Shown one piece after another: positions 1,941 through 20,714 of a stretch of DNA of 64,000 nt. The stretch comes from Streptomyces sp. NBC_01498 (GTDB lineage Bacteria > Actinomycetota > Actinomycetes > Streptomycetales > Streptomycetaceae): positions 372,001 through 436,000 of the forward strand of contig NZ_CP109598.1 in the NCBI RefSeq assembly GCF_036327775.1, written 5' to 3'. The position numbers and the translations under genes are program-made. The notes beneath the pieces are model-generated. The model worked only from the letters and a program-made list of their open reading frames with translations, did not search any database and was not told the DNA's origin. Positions within the stretch are counted from its first letter, which is position 1; each line of letters starts with the position of its first letter.

Positions 1941-4820
1941 TCACTTGGTGACAGTGAGGGTGTCGATGTCGAACAGGGAGCCGGCCCCACCGGTGAAGGT
2001 GAGGAACAGAGCCCCGGACGACCCGGTGCCGGTCAGCGCGGTGGAGACGTTGGCGAACGTCTCCCAGCCACCGGTGTTGGGTACGGCGACGGTGCCGAGG
2101 ACGGCGCCGGTCGCGGACCCCGAGCGGATCGTGACGGTACCGCCGGCGCCCGCCGAGGAGACCTTCGCGGAGAAGGTCTTGCCGCCGGCCGTGGGCACGC
2201 TGGCGTAGCCCGCCCAGTCGCCGTTCTCGATGTAGCCGAGCGTCTTGCCGCCGCTCGCCGGAGCGTGGTCGGCCGCCTGGACGCCCTGCCCCGAGCTGAA
2301 CGACTCGCCCTCGACGGTCTGGCTGGAGCCGGTGGTGCCGGTCGTGAACGTGAAGGCGTCCAGGTCGAAGAGGTTGCCCTGGCCGGTCACGCCCTTGAAG
2401 ACGAGGAACAGGTCCGTCGACGCGCTGGGGGCGTTGGCGATGTTCGTCGACACGTCGACGAAGTTCTCCCAGCCGCCGGTCGGCGCCACGTTCACCGAGC
2501 CGAGCAGGGTGCCGGTCGCGGAACCGGCCCGGACCTCCAGGCTGCCGCCGACGCCGCCGGAGGAGACGCGGGCGCTGAACCGGGTGGCGTTGGCCAGGTT
2601 GTACGGCTTGAAGGAGACCCAGTCGTTGTTGTCGGTGAAGCCGACGGTGCTGCCGCCCTCGGCGTTGCCGTGCGCGGCGGCCTGGATGCCGTTCTGGGCG
2701 GAGAAGTGCTCGCCCTGGCGGTGCCGGGGCTGGAGGATACGGGCGCTGTGCGTGGTCAGCCCGGCGCCGTCGGTGTACTCGGCGTCGAAGACCCCGTAGA
2801 TGTTGGCCGCGCTGTCGTGCTCACCGTCGGCGGGCACGTTCAGGTTGCCCGAGCAGCCGGTGGCCTGGGTGATCTGGTGCCGGTGCTCGTCGTGGCCGAG
2901 AAGATAGGTGACCTTGACCTTGGAGCAGTCGATGGTCCCGTCCTCCGGGTCGCTGACGGTGACCTGGAAGGGCACCGTGTCGCCGAAGGAGAACAGCTGG
3001 CCGTCCTTGGGCGTCTGGAGGGTCACGGTCGGCGCGGTGTTGCCCGCCGTGACGACCAGACTCGCCGTGCCGGTCAGCCCCTCCGGGTCCCGCACGGTGA
3101 GCGTCGGCCGGAAGGTGCCGTTGCTGGTGTAGGTGTGGCTCGGGTTGGCGGCCGTGGAGGACGTGCCGTCACCGAAGTTCCACGAGTACGTCAGAGCCTT
3201 GCCCTCGGGGTCCGCGCTGCCGGCCGAGGAGAACGCGACGGTCAGCGGGCTGGGTCCGGAGACCTTGTCGGCGGCGGCCTTGGCGACCGGGTTACGGTTG
3301 GCGCCCGCGAGGTACTCGACGCGGTACAGGGCCTGGTTGTTGGCTCCGGTGCCGTAGTCGAGGACGTACAGCGCGCCGTCGGGGCCGAACGCCTGGTCCA
3401 TGACCTGCGTGCCGGTCCACGGGAACGCCTCGATGACGCCCGGTGTGCCGTCGGACTTGACCTCGATGGCCTTGATCCACTTCCGGCCGTACTCGGCGGC
3501 GAAGAAGCGGCCGTCGAGCGACTGCGGGAACTTCACACTGGAGTTGAGGCCGGCGTTGTAGCGGTAGACGGGGCCGCCCATGGGCGACTCGGAGCCGCCG
3601 CCGAACTCGGGCGGGGTACCGGCGTCACCGCCGTACTTGATCCAGCTCGCCTTGGCGGCGGGCAGGGTCGCCAGACCGGTGTTGTGCGGCGAGTTGTTCG
3701 CGGGCGCGGCGCAGTTGTACTTCGCGGCGGACGGGCCACTGGGGAAGGTGAACTCGCTGTACGTCTCGGCGGACGTGTTGGTGCCGGTGCAGTACGGCCA
3801 GCCGTAGTTGCCGGGGCCGGTGATGCGGTTGAACTCGACCTGGCCGCTGGGGCCGCGGCTGGCGTTGGTGACGCCCGCGTCCGGACCGTAGTCGCCGAGG
3901 TAGACGATGCCGGTGGCCTTGTCGACGGACATCCGGAACGGGTTGCGGAAGCCCATCGCGTAGATCTCGGGGCGGGTCCTGGCGGTGCCCGGCGCGAAGA
4001 GGTTGCCGGACGGGACGGTGTAGCCGCCGGCCGCGGTCGGCTTGATGCGGAGCACCTTGCCGCGCAGGTCGTTGGTGTTGCCGGAGGAGCGCTGGGCGTC
4101 GAACTGCGGGTTGCGGTCGGTCCGTTCGTCGATCGGCGTGTAGCCGGCCGACTCGAACGGGTTCGTGTCGTCGCCCGTGGTCAGGTAGAGGTTGCCCTGC
4201 GCGTCGAAGTCGATGTCGCCGCCGACGTGACAGCACTGGCCACGGTCGTTGGGAACCTCCAGCACGACCTTCTCGCTCGCCAGGTCAAGGGTGTTGTCCG
4301 ACTTCAGCGTGAACCGGGAGAGGTTGAGGTGGCCCTTCCACGCCTCGAAGGTCGCGGCGCTGCCCGTGACGGGGGCGTCGCCGCCCGGCGTGCTGAGCTT
4401 GGGCGAGTAGTAGATGTACAGATACCGGTTGGTCGCGAAGCCGGGGTCGGCGGCTATGCCCTGGAGGCCTTCCTCGTCATGGGTGTAGACGTCCAGCTTG
4501 CCCGCCGACTTGGTGTTGCCCGCGGCGTCCGTGTAACGGACCGTGCCGTCCCTCGCCGTGTGCACCACGGCGCGGTCGGGCAGAACGGCGAGTGACATCG
4601 CCTCGCCCAACTCGGCCGATCCGAGGGCGAGTTGTACTTGCTGATAGTCGCCTGCCGGGATGTCGGCGGCGGCTGCTGCTTCCTGGCCGGGGTGCTCGTG
4701 GCCCGCGTGGGCGGCGGCGGTGGGAACGCTGATCGCGCCGCCCCCCACCACCAGGCCCAGTACCGCGAGCCATCTCAGCCACTTCTGTCTCGGGCGCGGC
4801 CGTCCTGAGAGTCCTGACAT
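1941..4820 (-). CDS. Secreted PQQ-dependent sugar dehydrogenase (glucose/sorbosone type) with PKD and two CBM6 modules
   Basis: About 959 aa. A signal peptide (about 1-38) precedes a six-bladed glucose/sorbosone dehydrogenase domain (about 50-440). That domain shows AVLPDRAVVHTARDG, GLQGIAADPGF, GNLYLTTGDDTNP, RNPFRMSVD and GPDGALYVLDYG. A PKD domain (about 460-545, SWNFGDGTS), an Ig-like segment (about 550-660) and two CBM6 modules (about 670-810 and 825-959) follow. Family knowledge implies periplasmic or extracellular oxidation of aldose sugars with PQQ; the modules suggest attachment to polysaccharide. The start is ATG 4820 behind AAGGAAGG; a longer frame to 4883 lacks such a site. It is first in a two-gene operon with the ThuA protein. 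No PQQ biosynthesis genes are visible nearby. Confidence 0.88.
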   Translation of the reverse strand: MSGLSGRPRPRQKWLRWLAVLGLVVGGGAISVPTAAAHAGHEHPGQEAAAAADIPAGDYQQVQLALGSAELGEAMSLAVLPDRAVVHTARDGTVRYTDAAGNTKSAGKLDVYTHDEEGLQGIAADPGFATNRYLYIYYSPKLSTPGGDAPVTGSAATFEAWKGHLNLSRFTLKSDNTLDLASEKVVLEVPNDRGQCCHVGGDIDFDAQGNLYLTTGDDTNPFESAGYTPIDERTDRNPQFDAQRSSGNTNDLRGKVLRIKPTAAGGYTVPSGNLFAPGTARTRPEIYAMGFRNPFRMSVDKATGIVYLGDYGPDAGVTNASRGPSGQVEFNRITGPGNYGWPYCTGTNTSAETYSEFTFPSGPSAAKYNCAAPANNSPHNTGLATLPAAKASWIKYGGDAGTPPEFGGGSESPMGGPVYRYNAGLNSSVKFPQSLDGRFFAAEYGRKWIKAIEVKSDGTPGVIEAFPWTGTQVMDQAFGPDGALYVLDYGTGANNQALYRVEYLAGANRNPVAKAAADKVSGPSPLTVAFSSAGSADPEGKALTYSWNFGDGTSSTAANPSHTYTSNGTFRPTLTVRDPEGLTGTASLVVTAGNTAPTVTLQTPKDGQLFSFGDTVPFQVTVSDPEDGTIDCSKVKVTYLLGHDEHRHQITQATGCSGNLNVPADGEHDSAANIYGVFDAEYTDGAGLTTHSARILQPRHRQGEHFSAQNGIQAAAHGNAEGGSTVGFTDNNDWVSFKPYNLANATRFSARVSSGGVGGSLEVRAGSATGTLLGSVNVAPTGGWENFVDVSTNIANAPSASTDLFLVFKGVTGQGNLFDLDAFTFTTGTTGSSQTVEGESFSSGQGVQAADHAPASGGKTLGYIENGDWAGYASVPTAGGKTFSAKVSSAGAGGTVTIRSGSATGAVLGTVAVPNTGGWETFANVSTALTGTGSSGALFLTFTGGAGSLFDIDTLTVTK

Positions 4821-4986
4821 CGAGCGTCCTTCCTTACCTGATAAGGGGAGGGAGACAGGCGGAAGCGCGGGCGAGCGCGCCACCGTGTCTCACTCAGGGA
4901 GGAACCTGCCGTCCAGGGTGATGTCCCGTCACCCGGGGAGCAGTCGTGCTGGTCCGTGCAAGGGGTTGCGGGTACGGCACCGAACA

Positions 4987-5042
4987 TTCGCGGGACGCCC
5001 GCGAATTTTTTGCATGCTGGCAACGGCGCACTAATTTGTCAA
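4987..5042 (-). promoter_or_regulatory. Candidate promoter and palindrome for the sugar dehydrogenase-ThuA operon
   Basis: On the minus strand, TTGACA (5042-5037) is followed 17 nt later by a weak -10 CAGCAT (5019-5014). Just downstream is a perfect 8-bp palindrome TTCGCGGG-acg-CCCGCGAA (4987-5005), which would fall at about +2 to +20 and could be an operator. Read on the plus strand, the palindrome is followed by six T's (5006-5011), exactly like an intrinsic terminator. Both readings remain open. Confidence 0.45.
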
Positions 5043-5163
5043 GAGTCTATCCAAATACCGTGACCTGCTGGTGGAGCGGCGGCCTCCGGCAGGGTGTTCA
5101 GGCTTTTGAATCAAGGCCGTTGGCGAGGCCGTGCGAATTGGGTTCACACTATGAACAAATGGG

Positions 5164-5199
5164 CTCTCCCCCGTGCTCTTCAGCGTTCACGGGGGAGAG
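5164..5199. terminator. 12-bp perfect stem-loop in the intergenic region
   Basis: CTCTCCCCCGTG (5164-5175) pairs perfectly with CACGGGGGAGAG (5188-5199) around a 12-nt loop. It lies between the minus-strand small gene that stops at 5509 and the dehydrogenase operon. It could terminate read-through from the small gene or be an operator. The following stretch 5200-5443 is G-rich low-complexity sequence in which I see no gene. Confidence 0.4.
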
Positions 5200-5443
5200 A
5201 TGACGTATCGGACGCGGCGGGCCGGGTGTGCGCGTACCGGGCACGGTGGGGCGGGGTGCGCGGGGTGTGTGGGCGGCGGATGTGGTGGGCGGGGTGCGTG
5301 CGGCGGGGGTGACGGGCCGGGTGCGAGCGCGCCGGGCCCGGCGGGCGGGAGGTGACGGGCCGGCCGGAGGTGACGGGCCGACAGTCGCGGGCCCGGTGGG
5401 TCACGGTCCGGCCGAAGGAGGCCCCGCCCTTGAGCCCGGACGG

Positions 5444-5499
5444 GCGAACGGGCGAACGAGCGAACGAGCGAACGAGCGAACGAGCGAACGAGCGAACGG
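5444..5499. repeat. 8-bp tandem repeat, seven GCGAACG(A/G) units
   Basis: Seven head-to-tail 8-bp units, the inner five identical (GCGAACGA), run from 5444 to 5499. They lie ten bases beyond the stop codon of the minus-strand small gene. The period is not a multiple of three and the array is outside any supported gene. It has no spacers, so it is not a CRISPR array. Confidence 0.95.
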
Positions 5500-5508
5500 T
5501 CCGGGCGC

Positions 5509-5712
5509 CTACTGCTCCGGACCGCCCGCTGTCTTCTCCAGGCGGATCAGGTCGTGCGGGGTGATGCCGGAGGCGGACGAGACGTCCTCGACGGCCGCGC
5601 CGCGCCGTACGGCGAGGACCGCCTCCATCTCCACGTCGGCGCGGGCGGCGTCGGCCGCCGCCTCGGCATCACGCAGTCGCTGCACGGCCAGTTCGAGATG
5701 AGCCAGGTCCAT
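5509..5712 (-). CDS. Small conserved-looking helical protein of unknown function
   Basis: 67 aa from ATG 5712 (MDLAHLELAVQRLRDAE...). It has an Ala/Arg/Glu-rich amphipathic helix (about 1-30), then a segment resembling a helix-turn-helix (AVEDVSSASGITPHDLIRLE). The latter recalls small actinomycete DNA-binding-like proteins, but I cannot assign a family. A start at 5781 is possible, though the extra residues look non-coding. No clear Shine-Dalgarno sequence is visible. Confidence 0.55.
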   Translation of the reverse strand: MDLAHLELAVQRLRDAEAAADAARADVEMEAVLAVRRGAAVEDVSSASGITPHDLIRLEKTAGGPEQ

Positions 5713-5830
5713 GGCGGCATGCTCGCACACCGGGCCCCCGCCCGCCGCCGCCCGCGCCGCCACGGACGGCCGAGGGTCCACCGCCGGGTCGTAAGCGGGT
5801 CGGGGCCGTCATGGCCGCAGGCTCACCGGG

Positions 5831-11676: not shown

Positions 11677-13053
11677 TCAGCGCGGGTTCAGCTCGCAGGG
11701 GTGAACCAGGTAGGCGCCCAGCCGGCCTTCCCGGTCCCCGTCCTTGAACGCCACGGCCCGGCCGACCAGGCGGTTCCGTTCCGCACGGAGATGGACGGCG
11801 AGGTGGGGGCTGTTGAGCCGGGCGTCGGCCGTGGGCAGTTGCTGCGGGGTGCTCACGCTCAGGTCCCAGCTCTCGGAGGCGCTACCCGGCGCGGTGACCG
11901 GCGCCGTGTCCGCCGCCTCGCCCAGCCGGATCTCCACCCGGTGATCCGTCAGGATTCCGATCCGCAGCGGGACGATGCCCTCCGGGGTGGTGATCTCCCC
12001 CTCCCACTCCCCCGGTCGCAGTGTCATCGGGCGGGGGTGCTCGGTGACCGGGCTGAGTATCTCGCTGCGGAAGCCGGGGGCCAGGAGGCCCACGAGATGG
12101 CGGACGATCGCGTCGCGGGCGGCCTTGTCGGTGGAGTTGGCCAGGACGGCGACGGAGAGATCGCGCTCGGGGATCTCGATCATCATCGCGGCGATGCCCC
12201 CCATGCCGCCGCCGTGACTGCGGATCACCGGTCCGGGCCCGCGCGTGACGATCCGGCCGAGCCCGTAACCGAGGTGCTCGTTGATCGGCTCGGCGTCGTA
12301 CATGTCCGCGAGCGTGGCGGGTTCGAGCAGCCGGTGGGACCGCCGGGCGAACAGCGCCACGTCGCCGGCGGTCGCCCAGCCGGCCCCGGCGGCGGAGTGA
12401 GAGCTGAAACAGGTGGGATACGCCCGCCCACCGGCGGAGTAGCGCTCGGCGACCGGACCGGGTCCCGGGTGGTCCGGCCCGTATCCGAAGCTGCTCAGGC
12501 CCAGCGGCTCGAAGATCCGCTCACGCAGATGGCCACCCGGCTCCCGGCCGGTCACGGACTCCAGCAGCCTGCCCAGCTCGCGATAGCCGAGGTTGGAGTA
12601 CTCGAAACCGGTGCCCGGCTCGCGGACGAGGGTGCGATACCGGTCGATGTCGATCGGGACGGGACCGGCTTCGTAGTGGAAGTTGTAGAAGGCGGGAAAA
12701 CCGCCCCGGTGTCGCAGCAGTTGGCGCGGTGTCGGCGCGGTCCCTTCGCTGACACCGGAGATCGGCCGGTCGAGGTCCAGCAGTCCTTCGTCGGCCGCCA
12801 GACAGACGGCCGTCGCGGTGAACGCCTTGGTGACGGAGGCCAGTCCGTAGATGGTCTCCGGAGTGGCCGGGCGCCGGGCGGCCGTGTCCGCCCAGCCGTA
12901 GGCCCTGGCGAGCACGAGCTCGTCATGTTCGGCGATCGCGACGGACACCGACGGACAGCCGTGGTCGGCCAGCGCCTTCGTACAGAACTCGTCCAGCCCG
13001 TCCAGCCCGTCCAGCGTGCCCGTCACCGTGGCCGGCCTCCTGATCGATGTCAC
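11677..13053 (-). CDS. Serine hydrolase of the class C beta-lactamase / esterase family
   Basis: About 458 aa. The penicillin-binding-type motifs are SVTK (nucleophile Ser and Lys), YSNLGY (Tyr) and SHGGGMGG in place of KTG. A C-terminal domain of about 130 residues follows (RPGEWEGEITTPEGIVPLRIG). No signal peptide is obvious, so it may act in the cytosol as an esterase or D-amino-peptidase-like enzyme. The start could be GTG 13053 or TTG 13065. Three in-frame 9-bp repeats (12991-13015) encode a LDGLDGLD run near the N-terminus. Confidence 0.8.
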   Translation of the reverse strand: MTSIRRPATVTGTLDGLDGLDEFCTKALADHGCPSVSVAIAEHDELVLARAYGWADTAARRPATPETIYGLASVTKAFTATAVCLAADEGLLDLDRPISGVSEGTAPTPRQLLRHRGGFPAFYNFHYEAGPVPIDIDRYRTLVREPGTGFEYSNLGYRELGRLLESVTGREPGGHLRERIFEPLGLSSFGYGPDHPGPGPVAERYSAGGRAYPTCFSSHSAAGAGWATAGDVALFARRSHRLLEPATLADMYDAEPINEHLGYGLGRIVTRGPGPVIRSHGGGMGGIAAMMIEIPERDLSVAVLANSTDKAARDAIVRHLVGLLAPGFRSEILSPVTEHPRPMTLRPGEWEGEITTPEGIVPLRIGILTDHRVEIRLGEAADTAPVTAPGSASESWDLSVSTPQQLPTADARLNSPHLAVHLRAERNRLVGRAVAFKDGDREGRLGAYLVHPCELNPR

Positions 13054-13105
13054 CGCGTGGGTCAACCCTAGGGACCGCCGGGCCGGGCCCGCCCCGCGCC
13101 CCCGG

Positions 13106-14041
13106 TCAGTGCGCGATCGAGTCGATCAGCTCGCGTGCTCCCTGGCGGAGCAGCGCCACCGCGACCGAAGTACCGAGGGTGGCCGGGTCGAGCGGGCCGG
13201 CCCACTCGTGCGCGTTGAGGACCGTCTTGCCGTCGGGGGTGAAGACCCGTGCGCGCAGCGACAGTCCACCGCTGCGCTCGGCGTGCGCGAATCCCGCGAT
13301 CGGGCTGTTGCAGTGGCCCTGGAGGACATGGAGGAACATCCGCTCGGCGGAGGCTTCCCGGTAGGTGTCCCGGTCGCCGAGCCCGGAGACGGCGTCGATG
13401 GTGTCGGTGTCGTCCTCGCGGCACTGGAGGGCGAGGATGCCCGCGCCGATGGGCGGGCACATGAGGTCGACCGGCAGGATCTCGGTGACGGCGTCGGCGC
13501 GCCCGATGCGTTCCAGGCCCGCGACGGCGAGCAGCAGGGCGTCGGCCTCGCCGGCCGCGAGTTTCTCCAGTCGGCGGTTGGCGTTGCCGCGCATCGGGAC
13601 GCATACGAGCTGCGGGTGGGAGGCGGCGAGCTGGGCGACACGCCGGACCGACGACGTGCCGACGCGGGTGCCGGCGGGCAGTTCGTCGAGGGTGAGCCCC
13701 CCGGGGTGGATCAGGGCGTCGCGGATGTCGTCCCTCTTCAGGAAGGCGGCGAAGACCGTCCCGGCCGGCAGCGGGCGGTCGGCGGGCACGTCCTTGACGC
13801 AGTGGACCGCGAGGTCGGCCTCTCCTGCGACGAGGGCGGCGTCGACCTCCTTGGTGAAGGCGCCCTTCCCTTCCACCAGGGAGAGGTCGCCCATCCACTT
13901 GTCGCCGGTCGTCCTGACCGGGATCACCTCGGTCTCGATGCCGGGGTGGAGGGCGGTCAGTTCGGCGCGCACCCGCTCCACCTGGGCAAGCGCCATCGGC
14001 GAGTCGCGGGAGACGATGCGGATCAGTTCTGGGGTGGACAT
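13106..14041 (-). CDS. hemC: Hydroxymethylbilane synthase (porphobilinogen deaminase), stand-alone paralogue
   Basis: 311 aa. It polymerises four porphobilinogens to hydroxymethylbilane in tetrapyrrole synthesis. It shows [16 protein letters not shown], the catalytic Asp in VKDVP (D84), TSSVRR, and the dipyrromethane-cofactor cysteine C244 in [11 protein letters not shown]. The family usually reads GGC..P there, so the His preceding Cys is unusual. The gene is not next to other hem genes, suggesting a second copy. Start ATG 14041 aligns with the family; upstream codons do not look coding. Confidence 0.88.
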
Positions 14042-14196
14042 GGCGTTCACGATAGAGCGTCGGGCGGGCGCTCCCGTCATCCGCCCCCGTTGCCCATCTC
14101 GGCGCCGGGACAACCCTGTTGGACGCTTCGGGCAGGTGTGCGAGCGCCGCTCTCCGGGGTTCGCAACCTTTGCCGCTCTCGGCGGTCATACCTGAT

Positions 14197-15331: not shown

Positions 15332-15691
15332 TCAGTCGGTGGTCGGTCGCCAGGCTGCTTCGGCGTCCTGGGCGGTGGGGTGGGTGGGGAAGACGTGTTC
15401 CAGGCCGACGATGCGGAAGATCCGGCTGACACGGTCGGGGACGGCGGCCAGGGCGATGGTCGCGTCGGCGGCCAGGGCGTGGTTGCGGGCGGCGAGAAGC
15501 ACGGTGATGCCGGTGGAGTCGCAGAAGGTGAGACCGGTGAGATCGAGGGTGAGCTGCCGGCCCGCCCGCAGGCCGGCCGCGGGCAGGGCGGCGCGGACCT
15601 CGGGCGCGGTGTGGTGGTCCAGTTCCCCGGTCAGTTCGATGACCACCCCGGCCGTGGTGGCACGGGTGTGAAGGGTCAGCTGCCTGGTCAC
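15332..15691 (-). CDS. STAS-domain anti-anti-sigma factor (RsbV/SpoIIAA-like)
   Basis: 119 aa, one complete STAS domain with the regulatory serine in CDSTG (S59). In this family, unphosphorylated protein binds an anti-sigma kinase and frees the sigma factor; phosphorylation of that Ser inactivates it. The GTG start (15691) overlaps the stop of the upstream PP2C phosphatase (GTGA), so the phosphatase is the obvious activator. No anti-sigma kinase or sigma factor gene lies nearby, so the downstream target is not visible here. Confidence 0.9.
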   Translation of the reverse strand: MTRQLTLHTRATTAGVVIELTGELDHHTAPEVRAALPAAGLRAGRQLTLDLTGLTFCDSTGITVLLAARNHALAADATIALAAVPDRVSRIFRIVGLEHVFPTHPTAQDAEAAWRPTTD

Positions 15692-16968
15692 GTCTGCCCT
15701 TCGCCGGCGGGTAGGGGTACATGGACGGCAAGGACGGCCGTGTCGTCGTCCACGCCCGTGCCGAAGGTGTCGAGCAGGGCGCGGATCGCCCCGATGGTCC
15801 GTGACGCGGTGGTGGGTGCCAGGGCACGGCCGAGGGCGAGGAGGGCTTCGTCGCCGTACCGGTCCCCGCCGTCTCCGCCGGCGTGGGCCTCGGTCAGGCC
15901 GTCGGTATGCAGGAGCAGGGTGTCACCGGGGGCGAGGCGGAAGGTGACGGTGGCGATGTGGGCGTCGGGGAGGACACCGATGAGCTGCCCGCCAGGGGTG
16001 GGCAACCGGTCGGCGGTGCCGTCCGCGCGCATCAGCAGGGCCGGTGGGTGGCCCCCGCTGGCCAGGGTGAGACGGAAACCGCCCCGGTCGGTGTCGGGGC
16101 TGAGCAGGCCGTAGAGGACGGTGCAGAAGCGGGGGTCGGTGCCGTGGTACTCGTGGTTGAGGACGGTGTTCAGATTGGCGAGGACGGCGGCCGGGTCGGG
16201 GTCGTAGACGGCGGCGGCACGCAGGGTGTAGCGGGCCAGGGAGGTGACCGCCGCGGCGGCGGCGCCCTTGCCGCAGACATCGCCCAGGAACATGCCCCAG
16301 GTACCGGCGGAGAGGGGGAAGAGGTCGTAGAAGTCGCCGCCGACCTCGTCGGCGGAGGCGACGTGGTAGTGCGCGGCGACATCGAGGCCGGGGACGTTCG
16401 CCAGAGTGGGTGGGAGCAGCGTTCTCTGGAGGGTGGCGTTGAGGAGCTTGAGGCGGTCGCGTTCCTGGTCGGCTTCCCGGCGGGCACGCAGCAGTTCGGT
16501 TTCGTAGGCGCGGCGGTCACGGGCGTCGAAAAGGGTGGTGCGGATCAGCAGTGGTTGTCCGTCGCCGCCCCTCTTGACCGTGGAGGTGACCATGACGGGC
16601 AGACGGGAGCCGTCGGCGGTCTTCAGTTCCAGGGCGATGCCGCTGATCTCACCCTGCATCCGTAGGAGGGGGGCGAAGTGCGTTTCGTGGTAGAGCCGGC
16701 CACCCACGGTCAGCAGGTCGGAGAAGTGTTTGCGGCCGACCAGGTCCTCGCGCGTGTGGCCGAGCCAGTTCAGCAGGGTGGTGTTGACCTTGGCGATCCG
16801 CCCGTCCAGGAGGGTGGACAGATAGCCGCAGGGCGCGTGCTCGTAGAGGTCCTCGGCGCTGTCCTCCAGCAGTGCGGAGAACCGGGCCTTCTCGTCGTCC
16901 GGCTCGCCCGGCTGCTGGTTCCCGCCCGGGTCCCCGCCCTCGGTGGAATCGCCTGTCGCGCACATCAT
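15688..16968 (-). CDS. PAS domain - PP2C (SpoIIE/RsbU-type) serine phosphatase, RsbP-like
   Basis: 426 aa. An N-terminal PAS domain (about 40-155, EHAPCGYLSTLLDGRIAKVN...) and a coiled-coil linker (about 158-192, YETELLRARREADQERDRLK) lead to a PP2C-SpoIIE domain (about 200-420). All metal-binding acids are present: GGDFYD, GDVCGKG, HTDGLTEA and DDDTAVLAV. It should dephosphorylate the STAS protein encoded next. ATG 16968 overlaps the stop of the upstream RsbQ-like gene by ATGA. The order hydrolase-PAS-phosphatase matches the RsbQ-RsbP pair of Bacillus subtilis, where the hydrolase activates RsbP through its PAS domain. Confidence 0.9.
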   Translation of the reverse strand: MMCATGDSTEGGDPGGNQQPGEPDDEKARFSALLEDSAEDLYEHAPCGYLSTLLDGRIAKVNTTLLNWLGHTREDLVGRKHFSDLLTVGGRLYHETHFAPLLRMQGEISGIALELKTADGSRLPVMVTSTVKRGGDGQPLLIRTTLFDARDRRAYETELLRARREADQERDRLKLLNATLQRTLLPPTLANVPGLDVAAHYHVASADEVGGDFYDLFPLSAGTWGMFLGDVCGKGAAAAAVTSLARYTLRAAAVYDPDPAAVLANLNTVLNHEYHGTDPRFCTVLYGLLSPDTDRGGFRLTLASGGHPPALLMRADGTADRLPTPGGQLIGVLPDAHIATVTFRLAPGDTLLLHTDGLTEAHAGGDGGDRYGDEALLALGRALAPTTASRTIGAIRALLDTFGTGVDDDTAVLAVHVPLPAGEGQT

Positions 16969-17783
16969 CCGGGGGCTCCCGCGAACGCGGCGATGGCCGC
17001 GGCGGTCTCCTCGGGGGCGGCGAGCTGGGGGCAGTGTCCGGTGGCGTCCAGGGTGATCAGGCGGCTTCCCGGTATCCGGGCGTGGACGAACGCGCCCACC
17101 TCGGACGGGGCGATCGCGTCGTTGGAGCACTGGGCGACGAGGGTGGGCACACCCACCGACGCGAGGTCGGCCCGGTTGTCGGAGAGGAACGTCACCCGGG
17201 CGAACGCCCGGGCGATGTCCGGGTGGGTGCGGCAGAAACTGTTGGTCAGTTCCTCCCCCAGCTCGGGCCGCTCAGGATTTCCCATGATCACCGGGGCCAT
17301 GGCGCCGGACCAGCCGAGGTAGTTCGCGTCCAGGGACTCCAGCAGTTCGTCGATGTCGCCGGCGCTGAACCCGCCCCGGTAACCGGTGACCGGGTCGTCG
17401 ATGAAACAGGGTGACGGGGCGAGCAGCACCAGCCCGGTGAACGCCTCGGGTTCGCGTGCCGCGGCCAGCACACCCATCATCGCGCTCACCGAATGGCCCA
17501 CGAAGGTGACCGGGCCCAGTGCCAGTTCCCGGCACAGCTCCAGCACATCGTCGGCGTACCCGTCCAGCGACGCGTGGCGCTCCGGGCTCCACGCGGCGAG
17601 ATCCGAGTTCCCCGATCCGACGTGATCGAAGAGAACGACCGTGAAGTCGCGCTCCAGCGCCGGCACCACCAGCCGCCACATGTTCTGGTCGCACCCGAAC
17701 CCGTGCGCCAGCATCAACACCGGGCCACCGGCACGCCCGGTCACCCTCACATGGTTCCTCCGCCGCACGTCCATGCGCGCCAT
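16965..17783 (-). CDS. RsbQ-like alpha/beta hydrolase
   Basis: 272 aa from ATG 17783, the length and register of B. subtilis RsbQ (269 aa). It has the oxyanion/strand motif LAHGFGCDQNMWR and the nucleophile S98 in FVGHSVSAMMG. The triad is completed by D222 in QCSNDAIAP and H250 in DATGHCPQL. A family-specific stretch runs from PSPCFIDDP through NYLGW to ERPELGEEL. RsbQ is thought to make or deliver a small hydrophobic signal that switches on RsbP under energy stress; the same role is inferred here. An ATG at 17879 with a perfect AGGAGG could add 32 residues of poorer codon usage. The 17784-18367 gap separates it from the divergent P450 and holds both promoters, which I cannot place. Confidence 0.87.
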   Translation of the reverse strand: MARMDVRRRNHVRVTGRAGGPVLMLAHGFGCDQNMWRLVVPALERDFTVVLFDHVGSGNSDLAAWSPERHASLDGYADDVLELCRELALGPVTFVGHSVSAMMGVLAAAREPEAFTGLVLLAPSPCFIDDPVTGYRGGFSAGDIDELLESLDANYLGWSGAMAPVIMGNPERPELGEELTNSFCRTHPDIARAFARVTFLSDNRADLASVGVPTLVAQCSNDAIAPSEVGAFVHARIPGSRLITLDATGHCPQLAAPEETAAAIAAFAGAPG

Positions 17784-18298
17784 CGTCGCAGACCACTGAT
17801 CGGCGCCTTCCTGCCGGGCACCCCGGGGAACGGGACGCGGCGCCCCGCCGAACCGGGCACCGGAGACCGACACGGACATCGCCCGGCCTCCTGCCCGCAC
17901 GCTCATGCCGATTCACGAGCGGGGCGCCGGTCGCTCACGGCCCGGGGATCATTCCCGACGCCGTCGGGCACGCCCGTGAACAGGCCCGCGCCGCACTCGC
18001 CCCGTGCAGCCGACCGGCCGTCACCGCTCGGGCCGTCACCCTGCGCGGGTCGCTACCGTGCGCGGGGAGTCACCGTCCGCCGGGATCGCCGTATACGGGG
18101 GTCACGCGCTCCGGCGCGTGCGGCGGCTTCCCCGGTGCGCCGGAGGCGACGTTCCACGCGGCGAAGGCCCTACCGGCGGATGACCGATCCTCTGACCAGC
18201 ACGCTTTCAGGTGGGCGCGGAGCGTCGGCCGCGCGCCCCCGGCCCCAGGCGGCTTACCCGTACAGGTGAGCTTGGGATCTCCGCGCATGGCGGCTCCC

Positions 18299-18358
18299 CC
18301 CACGGGCAATGAACTCGGAGTTGCCAATGTCACCGTGAGTGACTTTCCCTCCCGTGGG
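18299..18358 (+). promoter_or_regulatory. Inverted repeat that could hide the P450 ribosome site
   Basis: CCCACGGG (18299-18306) is complementary to CCCGTGGG (18351-18358), whose last bases are part of the GGGAG ribosome site of the ATG at 18368. Folding would sequester translation initiation. This is inference from sequence alone. Confidence 0.35.
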
Positions 18359-18367
18359 AGTGCTGTG

Positions 18368-19576
18368 ATGACCGGTGTGGACTCCGTACAAACCTGCCCC
18401 TTCCGCCACGACGTGGCTCTGGAGCCCGACCCCTTCATGGCCCGCATGCACGCCGAGGCGCCCGTCGCCCGGGTGCGTATGCCGTACGGCGAGGGCGAGT
18501 GCTGGCTGGTGACCCGGTACGAGGACGTGAAGACCGTCACCTCGGACCGCCGCTTCAGCAGGGCCGCCCTCGTCGGGCGGGACTTCCCCCGGATCACTCC
18601 GGCGCCCATCGCCCAGTCCGAGTCCATCAACCTCATGGACCCGCCCGCCCTCAACCGGGTGCGCAGGCTGATCAACAAGGCGTTCACCACTCCGCAGGTG
18701 GAGGCACTGCGCCCGTGGACCCAGCGGACCGCGGACGGACTGCTGGACACCATGGCCGCGAGCGGCGCGCCGGCCGATGTCACCGAGCACCTCGCGGAGC
18801 GGCTGCCGCTCATGACGATCAGCGAACTGCTGGACGTGCCGGAGGCCGACCGGGAGCAACTGCGGCGCCGCGCCATGGAGATGATGTCCATGAGCGCCGC
18901 CGACCGGGACCTGGCCGTCGCCGCGAAGGCCTGGCTGCGGGCCTACTTCGCCGACCTGACGGCAAAGCGGCGGCGTGCTCCCGGCAACGACCTGATCAGC
19001 GGCCTGGCCACGGCGCGGATCGGCGACGAGATGCTCGACGCGGACGAACTCACCGTGCTGGCCATGCTCCTGGTGGTCACCGGCCACGACACCACGACGT
19101 ACGAGATCAGCAACATCGTGTACACGCTGCTGACCCACCCCGAGCGGGCGGCGGAGCTGCGCGCCCGGCCCGAGCTGCTTCCCCGGGCCGTCGAGGAACT
19201 GCTGCGGCACATTCCGTTCCGGCAAGGGGTCGGTATCCCCCGGGTGGCCCTGGAGGACGTCGCGTTCGACGGTGCCGTCATCAAGGCGGGCGACACGGTC
19301 CATGTGTCATATCTGACGGGCAACCGTGACGCGCTGGCCTACGACCGCCCGGACGAGATCGACTTCCACCGGGTGGACCCCGTCCCGCACCTGACGTTCG
19401 GGTACGGCAGCCATCACTGCCTCGGTGCCCATCTGGCGCGCATGGTGCTCCAGGTCTCCCTCGGCACGCTGCTCACCCGATTCCCCGACCTTCGTCTGGC
19501 CGTACCGGCGGAGGAGGTGCGGTGGAACACCGTCTCGATCTGGCGCTATCCGCTCGCCCTGCCGGTCACCTGGTAA
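18368..19576 (+). CDS. Cytochrome P450, CYP158-like, partner of RppA
   Basis: 402 aa. It has the I-helix VVTGHDTTTYE, the K-helix ExxR in EELLRHIP and the haem loop FGYGSHHCLGAHLAR with the ligand cysteine. It ends LPVTW like other Streptomyces CYP158/CYP105-type enzymes. The next gene starts 10 nt downstream and encodes tetrahydroxynaphthalene synthase. In S. griseus and S. coelicolor, P450s paired with RppA couple the naphthol product into dimers and polymers (melanin-like pigment or biflaviolin), so that is the likely reaction. The ATG has GGGAG 7 nt upstream; an upstream frame reaches 18266 but without family support. Confidence 0.88.
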   Translation: MTGVDSVQTCPFRHDVALEPDPFMARMHAEAPVARVRMPYGEGECWLVTRYEDVKTVTSDRRFSRAALVGRDFPRITPAPIAQSESINLMDPPALNRVRRLINKAFTTPQVEALRPWTQRTADGLLDTMAASGAPADVTEHLAERLPLMTISELLDVPEADREQLRRRAMEMMSMSAADRDLAVAAKAWLRAYFADLTAKRRRAPGNDLISGLATARIGDEMLDADELTVLAMLLVVTGHDTTTYEISNIVYTLLTHPERAAELRARPELLPRAVEELLRHIPFRQGVGIPRVALEDVAFDGAVIKAGDTVHVSYLTGNRDALAYDRPDEIDFHRVDPVPHLTFGYGSHHCLGAHLARMVLQVSLGTLLTRFPDLRLAVPAEEVRWNTVSIWRYPLALPVTW

Positions 19577-19586
19577 GGAACTGATC

Positions 19587-20714
19587 ATGGCAACTCTGTG
19601 CAGACCCGCCGTCGCGGTCCCCGAGCACGTCATCACGATGGAAGAGACCGTGGAGCTGGCCCGGACACTGCACGCCGGCCATCCGCAGCTCGACCTGGCC
19701 GTGCGGCTGATCAGCAACACCGGTGTCCGGACCCGGCGTCTGGTGCAGCCGATCGGGACGACCCTCCAGCACCCCGGCTTCACCACCCGTAACGCGGTCT
19801 ACGAGGCGGAGGCGAAGGCCCGGGTGCCGGAGGTCGTACGCCGGGCCCTGGGCCACGCCGAACTGGCGCCGCCGGACATCGACATGATCGTCTATGTGTC
19901 CTGCACCGGCTTCATGATGCCGTCGATGACCGCGTGGCTCATCAACACCATGGGCTTCGGATCGGGGACCCGGCAGCTGCCGATCGCCCAGCTCGGGTGC
20001 GCGGCCGGCGGCGCGGCCATCAACCGGGCGCACGACTTCTGTTCGGCGTACCCGGGGGCGAACGTGCTGATCGTGGCCTGCGAGTTCTGCTCGCTGTGCT
20101 ATCAGCCGACGGACCTGGCCGTGGGCAACCTGCTCTCCAACGGCCTGTTCGGGGACGCCGTCGCCGCCGCCGTCGTACGCGGTGAGGGAGGCACCGGCGT
20201 ACGGCTTGAGCGCAACGCGTCCCATCTGGTGCCCGACACGGAGGACTGGATCTCCTACGAGGTCCGGGACACCGGGTTCCACTTCATGCTCGACAAGCGG
20301 GTGCCCGGCACCATGTCCGTCCTCGCGCCCGCCATGCGGGAGATGGCCGAGCCGTACGACTGGGACGTCTCCGGGCTGGACTTCTACATCGTGCACGCCG
20401 GAGGGCCCCGCATCCTGGACGACCTCTGCCGCTTCCTCGATGTACCGGCGGACATGTTCCGCTACAGCAGGGCGACACTGACCGAGCGCGGCAACATCGC
20501 CAGCGCCGTCATCTTCGACGCCCTGGACCGCTTCTTCGAGGACGGCGGCGCCGAGCACGGCGCACGCGGGGTCATCGCCGGCTTCGGCCCCGGCATCACG
20601 GCCGAACTCGCCCTCGGCACCTGGACGGTGGAGGGGAGGGGAAGCCTGCCGATCGAACGGGAAGTGATCCTCCCGACGCCGGTCCTGATGTCACGGAGCG
20701 ACGTGGCCGGCTGA
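19587..20714 (+). CDS. rppA: 1,3,6,8-tetrahydroxynaphthalene synthase (type III polyketide synthase)
   Basis: 375 aa. It condenses five malonyl-CoA to tetrahydroxynaphthalene. The N-terminus MATLCRPAVAVPEHVITM and the active-site segment LPIAQLGCAAGGAAINRAH (C138) match RppA. The catalytic His lies in IVHAGGPRILDD and the Asn in ERGNIASAVIF. The start ATG 19587 uses AAGGA embedded in the P450 stop (taAGGA), so the pair is one operon. The product oxidises to flaviolin, the precursor for the P450. Confidence 0.96.
   Translation: MATLCRPAVAVPEHVITMEETVELARTLHAGHPQLDLAVRLISNTGVRTRRLVQPIGTTLQHPGFTTRNAVYEAEAKARVPEVVRRALGHAELAPPDIDMIVYVSCTGFMMPSMTAWLINTMGFGSGTRQLPIAQLGCAAGGAAINRAHDFCSAYPGANVLIVACEFCSLCYQPTDLAVGNLLSNGLFGDAVAAAVVRGEGGTGVRLERNASHLVPDTEDWISYEVRDTGFHFMLDKRVPGTMSVLAPAMREMAEPYDWDVSGLDFYIVHAGGPRILDDLCRFLDVPADMFRYSRATLTERGNIASAVIFDALDRFFEDGGAEHGARGVIAGFGPGITAELALGTWTVEGRGSLPIEREVILPTPVLMSRSDVAG

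Follow-up and report, generated by a model that had tools for sequence, protein, structure and literature searches.

In Bacillus subtilis, the relevant passages of the literature describe a signalling chain in which contact between the hydrolase RsbQ and the PAS domain of RsbP is relayed through a helix to the phosphatase domain of RsbP, RsbV is dephosphorylated and sigma B is released (PMC3183031, PMC10950880, PMC4598750, PMC5468089). Binding of RsbQ to the PAS domain and the requirement of the RsbQ catalytic site for phosphatase activation were both shown in that species (PMC3183031). Nadezhdin et al. 2011 also reported the pair of RsbQ and a PAS-phosphatase in Streptomyces, listing two copies of the module for S. 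ambofaciens and two for S. pristinaespiralis; according to that paper the target of such modules is known in B. subtilis only, and the term STAS occurs nowhere in its main text (PMC3183031). Here we analysed a three-gene operon in a 64,000-nucleotide stretch of Streptomyces sp. NBC_01498 (hereafter the window, positions 372001-436000 of a single 7.27-Mb contig), the first two genes of which correspond to the Streptomyces RsbQ-PAS modules with PPM output described in the 2011 paper. The operon resembles the RsbQ-RsbP system of the B. subtilis sigma B network in its hydrolase clade and catalytic triad, in the order of PAS domain, helical linker and PP2C domain within the phosphatase, and in the gene order rsbQ-rsbP. 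Unlike that system, it carries a substrate-like STAS protein as a third overlapping gene, has a glycine in the PAS domain at the position of Glu72 of RsbP, and its kinase and sigma targets are candidates only. Coupling of a PAS-PP2C phosphatase to a STAS protein is also seen in Rv1364c of Mycobacterium tuberculosis, but Rv1364c is one PAS-PP2C-kinase-STAS protein with which the passage concerned names no RsbQ, whereas the window has separate genes and no kinase (PMC10950880). A further streptomycete gene, SLIV_19850 / SCO3690 of S. lividans, was described as similar to RsbQ, and its deletion as lowering diamide tolerance (PMC6295645).

Our analysis indicates that the operon probably serves as the input side of a partner switch of the SigB type, with the kinase and the sigma factor encoded elsewhere. 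By analogy with B. subtilis we infer each step of binding, dephosphorylation and sigma release: the RsbQ-like hydrolase would contact the phosphatase at the PAS domain, and whether inhibition of the PP2C domain is relieved through the helical linker would depend on a hydrophobic small molecule within the hydrolase active site. The phosphatase would then take the phosphate off Ser59 of the co-encoded STAS protein, which in its unphosphorylated form would bind an RsbW-like anti-sigma kinase and so free a sigma factor of the SigB/F/G family. An earlier sequence-only reading of this DNA had proposed a complete sensor-phosphatase-target switch in a streptomycete. The RsbQ clade, the RsbP-type phosphatase and the co-encoded STAS protein of that proposal all stand, and the RsbQ-RsbP pair within it is not new, having been published in 2011. 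Its label of energy sensor is an assumption for which, according to the 2011 authors, experimental support is lacking even for the B. subtilis module (PMC3183031).

The three genes lie on the minus strand from 17783 down to 15332 in the order hydrolase, PAS-PP2C phosphatase and STAS protein, at the coordinates previously proposed. The rsbQ stop and rsbP start share ATGA (16965-16968), and the rsbP stop and STAS start share GTGA (15688-15691). The hydrolase triad S98, D222 and H250 was confirmed, as was DSTG at STAS residues 58-61, and the phosphatase metal ligands are intact, with GGDFYD, GDVCG, TDGLTE and DDDTA all present. The best solved match of the hydrolase is B. subtilis RsbQ (1wom, 286 bits), followed by Olei00960 (245 bits) and plant KAI2/D14-type proteins (186 bits and below), and it has no close paralogue in its own genome (self-match 611 bits, next 46 or less). 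A FastTree phylogeny of 223 locus sequences (two of the 225 distinct loci described below were short and were dropped) and five solved proteins, rooted on three hydrolases of the same genome, placed the hydrolase inside a clade with RsbQ 1wom and Olei00960 (support 88), which bears out the RsbQ membership first suggested from the sequence. Outside this clade fell three plant receptors of D14/KAI2 type, the three own-genome hydrolases and the divergent loci L081, L082 and L084. A general esterase miscalled as RsbQ was rejected on the basis of this placement and of the low scores of the genome's other matches. RsbQ-like hydrolases with no neighbouring PAS match were found at L082, L084 and L103, the first two being among those outside the clade.

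The second gene encodes an RsbP-type PAS-phosphatase, as had been claimed. Nadezhdin et al. 2011 named nine residues typical of RsbP-PAS, as a 75% consensus (PMC3183031). By residue class the window's PAS domain agrees at eight of them (C47, L50, L86, R91, Y93, H94, H97 and P124), where the positions were mapped by the spacing of the paper's numbered residues rather than by alignment with RsbP, and the pairing of class to position was partly read from the figure legend. No DIT motif follows the PAS domain, which has DAR instead, and the first metal-site motif, GGDFYD, lies at residues 210-215, just ahead of the PF07228 match. In an AlphaFold model of residues 22-176, comprising the PAS domain and the following helix (mean predicted local distance difference test score 95.5), residue 94 sits in a long helix (88-105) and residue 110 in the strand that follows (107-116). 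A helix of 26 residues, a candidate for an RsbP-like coiled-coil linker, is predicted between the PAS and PP2C domains. A search of solved structures with the PAS alignment gave no close match, the single weak one scoring 26.5 bits.

The PAS domain bears on an alternative that competes with the sensing step of the partner-switch reading only. As in Model 1 of Nadezhdin et al., the hydrolase might produce or deliver a ligand or cofactor (perhaps something haem-like, or a redox cofactor) for the PAS domain, which would then be the sensor in place of the hydrolase. His94 (16687-16689) falls in the column that these authors aligned with the haem-ligating histidine of Dos/FixL (PMC3183031), and this column is histidine in 188 of the 221 PAS domains found downstream of RsbQ. 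The haem PAS domains of FixL and DosP are also among the nearest solved folds that Foldseek returned for the model, but flavin-binding and other PAS domains score alike in the same lists, and haem binding is therefore a lead only. The B. subtilis residue at the haem-ligand column was moreover described as dispensable (PMC3183031), and we consider this alternative rather unlikely.

The third gene product scores 76 bits in the anti-anti-sigma family TIGR00377, above the cut-off of 53.45, and is presumably the substrate of the phosphatase. Conservation of the operon was surveyed in three samples. An evenly drawn survey of the class found RsbQ at E <= 1e-40 in 74 of 394 genomes and gave 76 fetched loci, to which we added the best 80 of at least 574 relatives from named genomes, 80 rows of a genus survey (taken from the matches listed, mostly those with the highest scores, and afterwards thinned) and, lastly, the window. 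These made up 237 loci, and dropping 12 duplicates with identical RsbQ DNA left 225 distinct loci, counts from which lean to close relatives chosen mainly by score. The class survey showed a PAS domain directly after RsbQ at 72 of 76 loci and a PP2C domain at 66, with STAS as the third gene at 19; the first two counts indicate that the operon order is not due to chance. Within the window's own genus the corresponding class-survey values were 17/17, 16/17 and 14/17. Among the pooled loci, PAS was directly downstream in 221 and PP2C was present in 214, and an RsbV-like STAS protein was co-encoded as the third gene in 110, where L085 was scored as STAS-bearing by distance in spite of its broken operon. 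This locus (L085, genome G301, 3426-5716) is the best-scoring class-survey relative and is decayed, with a stop in rsbQ, no PP2C match and two STAS stretches, and it has a kinase of the operon-linked family described below on the opposite strand.

In the remaining 115 of the 225 loci STAS is not the third gene, and the phosphatase therefore often acts on something encoded elsewhere. This can be interpreted as the STAS protein not being the main substrate, with RsbQ-RsbP controlling unlinked anti-anti-sigma proteins and the STAS gene serving as an optional passenger or a tuning decoy. The RsbQ tree requires at least 28 changes in the presence of STAS, and the genome holds six anti-anti-sigma genes over the TIGR00377 cut-off, five of them outside the operon. 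However, a start codon that would make the genes overlap by 1 or 4 bases is available at the rsbP/STAS junction in 88 of 110 loci (and at the rsbQ/rsbP junction in 176 of 221). The 110 operon STAS proteins, the window's included, all have Asp58, Ser59 and Gly61, and 109 of them have Ser or Thr at residue 60. The overlap and the invariant Ser59 indicate that the STAS gene stays with the phosphatase and that its product remains switchable, and we regard the passenger or decoy explanation as improbable.

Further evidence for the partner-switch reading came from genes that adjoin the operon in relatives, which were sought with profiles of the own genome's eight SigBFG factors and of its 30 best HATPase_c_2 domains (RsbW-like kinases). 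In all, the own genome has 62 HATPase_c_2 matches, of which 50 exceed the cut-off. In the fetched stretches, a SigB/F/G sigma gene scoring above 150 bits was found at 21 of 225 loci, a limit that excludes one match of 117 bits at L184. Eighteen of these genes are no more than 1.5 kb away from the operon, and three are farther away, in sequence 2.6 times longer. This corresponds to a density of 27 per Mb near the operon vs 1.7 per Mb far from it (binomial p = 4.5e-8, with related loci treated as independent, as in all of these near/far tests), and a count of 114 matches over 12 genomes (~112 Mb) puts the background at about 1 per Mb. A gene counted as "near" if it lay no more than 1.5 kb ahead of rsbQ, or no more than 1.5 kb past the operon end, which was fixed at 1.7 kb after rsbQ, a rule under which the L322 sigma gene and the L119 kinase gene were counted as far though both are close by. 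One family of short kinases also recurs beside the operon. Among nine of them, the pairs listed share ~46-72% identity over the domain, the L040 and L328 kinases stand farther off as a pair (36-45% identity to the rest), and best identities to the own genome's 30 top kinases are ~33-44% for those compared. The near/far count for linked kinases was 9 vs 4 (p = 0.002), a test that is partly circular because the profile was built from linked genes.

Both partners of a complete SigB partner-switch locus, an RsbW-like kinase and a SigB-type sigma factor, were found together at six loci of relatives and not in the window. The six arrangements all differ. L257 reads sigma-kinase-RsbQ-RsbP-STAS on one strand, L040 reads sigma-RsbQ-RsbP-STAS-kinase on one strand with a lower kinase score (116 bits), L119 has RsbQ-RsbP-STAS followed by sigma and kinase, and at L303 paired sigma and kinase genes run divergently from RsbQ-RsbP-STAS. 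At L270 and L322 sigma and kinase lie on the other strand, with no STAS match at the former and a weak one (48 bits) farther off at the latter. The sigmas of L257, L119, L040 and L303 exceed the TIGR02980 cut-off and their kinases exceed that of PF13581. The statement in the sequence-only reading that no kinase or sigma factor is nearby thus holds for the 64-kb window, as judged by the SigBFG and RsbW-like profiles, and fails as a generality. Linkage to a sigma or kinase gene (23 loci) requires at least 20 state changes on the RsbQ tree, which suggests repeated joining and splitting of the operon and its partners. Many RsbQ and SigBFG genes of complete genomes lie near chromosome ends, as read off their coordinates and not counted, but mere clustering of regulators in chromosome arms, functionally meaningless, is a very improbable source of an enrichment that holds within the same fetched stretches and of both partners occurring together in six arrangements. 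Partner linkage was also compared between STAS-bearing loci (18/109) and others (5/114; Fisher p = 0.004), and STAS presence as its driver was rejected, since the association was not upheld on phylogenetically independent pairs. Separately, a single long frame downstream of RsbQ at L051 (928 residues) and at L064 (935 residues) has a kinase domain near its C-terminal end and a weak STAS match beyond it, and these loci apparently represent a fused phosphatase-kinase version.

The arrangements in relatives suggest that this genome encodes the partners at other sites. Searched with the alignment of linked kinases, the own genome gave one clear match, at 6671607-6672041 (182.9 bits, next 71.9), a gene for 156 residues that is unlinked to the operon and is the best kinase candidate. 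The genus survey found RsbQ in 145 of 392 genomes (E <= 1e-90). The kinase family was present at E under 1e-42 in 102 of these 145 vs 83 of the 247 RsbQ-negative genomes, and at the looser E <= 1e-25 in 123/145 vs 140/247, where at most 10 candidates per genome were scored and related genomes were taken as independent. A tree of the sigma factors places 16 of the 21 linked ones with three SigBFG genes of the own genome, near 2146.6, 6508.9 and 7124.1 kb, which are the candidate sigma targets; four others group with the own gene near 2158.6 kb and one stands apart. No kinase match was found in the fetched 20 kb around the three candidate sigma genes. As only the genes near 6508.9 and 7124.1 kb adjoin PP2C genes and none lies beside that near 2146.6 kb, the latter is the least spoken for.

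Several observations weigh against the partner-switch reading, in addition to the many loci where STAS is not the third gene, the missing association on independent pairs, the circularity of the kinase test and the treatment of related loci and genomes as independent. No SigBFG gene or RsbW-like kinase was found in the whole window with the local profiles, SigBFG being the only sigma type sought, and no sigma match was found in the fetched 20 kb around the candidate kinase gene. The PP2C genes adjoining the sigma genes near 6508.9 and 7124.1 kb, on the other strand (stretches L375, ~6508.0 kb, and L374, ~7123.5 kb), mean that these sigmas may have phosphatases of their own. The ninth RsbP-PAS position, Glu72 in B. 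subtilis, is Gly110 in the window, and of 221 relatives, the window included, 179 have Gly in this column and 33 have Glu. As the E72A substitution was reported to be null in B. subtilis RsbP (PMC3183031), this is a real difference between lineages, with the proviso that a 75% consensus does not strictly require Glu for membership of the RsbP-PAS class. A SigB-like motif (consensus GNNT-N13..17-GGGTA[CT]) occurred upstream of 8 of 224 loci vs 3.9 expected, and a stricter GTT(T) form upstream of 4 of 224 vs 0.9 expected, which is not clear enrichment; the looser pattern is absent from the window's own upstream region. SigB-like autoregulation of the operon was rejected on this basis. No sigma-70-like site and no terminator were found for the operon, and a role as a defence system was also rejected, with no PADLOC match for the hydrolase, phosphatase or STAS protein.

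Table 1. Features of the operon and of its upstream region, in positions of the window.
Feature	Position	Strand	Remarks
rsbQ-like alpha/beta hydrolase gene	16965..17783	-	272 residues; Pfam Abhydrolase_1
Hydrolase triad codons	S98 17490-17492, D222 17118-17120, H250 17034-17036	-	
rsbP-like PAS-PP2C (SpoIIE-type) phosphatase gene	15688..16968	-	426 residues
PAS domain of phosphatase, residues 46-148	16525..16833	-	Pfam PAS_9; class residues; AlphaFold model
Predicted helical linker from PAS to phosphatase domain, residues 150-175	16444..16521	-	helix 129-154 of AlphaFold model
SpoIIE/PP2C catalytic domain, residues 221-417	15718..16308	-	PF07228, 156 bits
STAS anti-anti-sigma (RsbV-like) gene	15332..15691	-	119 residues; STAS_2, TIGR00377
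STAS Ser59 codon in DSTG, likely phosphorylation site	15515..15517	-	
Upstream region, common to rsbQ and the divergent P450 gene	17784..18265	-	

Among the neighbouring genes, a cytochrome P450 gene (18266-19576) is divergent from rsbQ and is followed by an open reading frame (19425-20714) for a type III polyketide synthase with Chal_sti_synt / RppA Pfam domains. Together (18266-20714) they resemble rppA-P450 pigment operons. Past the 3' end of the operon, which lies in a chromosome arm, are hemC, encoding hydroxymethylbilane synthase (13106-14113; 313 bits vs cut-off 164), and a serine hydrolase gene (11677-13065) of the Beta-lactamase family PF00144 (193 bits), to which named beta-lactamase and peptidase families matched below cut-off only.

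The distribution of RsbQ is patchy. The module also occurs on linear Streptomyces plasmids, one of the two examined having STAS and the other lacking it, and lateral transfer of the operon is likely. In a Rhodococcus ruber record (L126, 6001-6816), RsbQ is 82% identical to that of the window, compared with 72 and 74% for the other two Rhodococcus copies among the matches listed, and PAS-PP2C is present with no STAS match; lateral transfer is probable in this case. More tentatively, and at somewhat less than even probability, RsbQ-RsbP-STAS may be a transferable actinomycete input cassette, repeatedly joined to and split from SigB-type sigmas and one RsbW-like kinase family, that acts here at a distance on the orphan kinase at 6671607-6672041, so that rearrangement of the linear chromosome would rewire the stress regulon under a hydrolase sensor.

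In summary, the additions to the published pair are the STAS protein as third gene and the sigma and kinase cassettes that name a target class; the RsbQ literature covered spans 2009-2018 and 2024, and priority is not claimed. The occurrence of sigma factor, kinase, hydrolase, phosphatase and STAS protein together in relatives points to SigB/F/G sigma factors as the likely target class. Self-contained five-gene cassettes such as L257 could be transferred to a test host in the search for the ligand of the hydrolase, which is related, in bacteria, to the strigolactone and karrikin receptors of plants.

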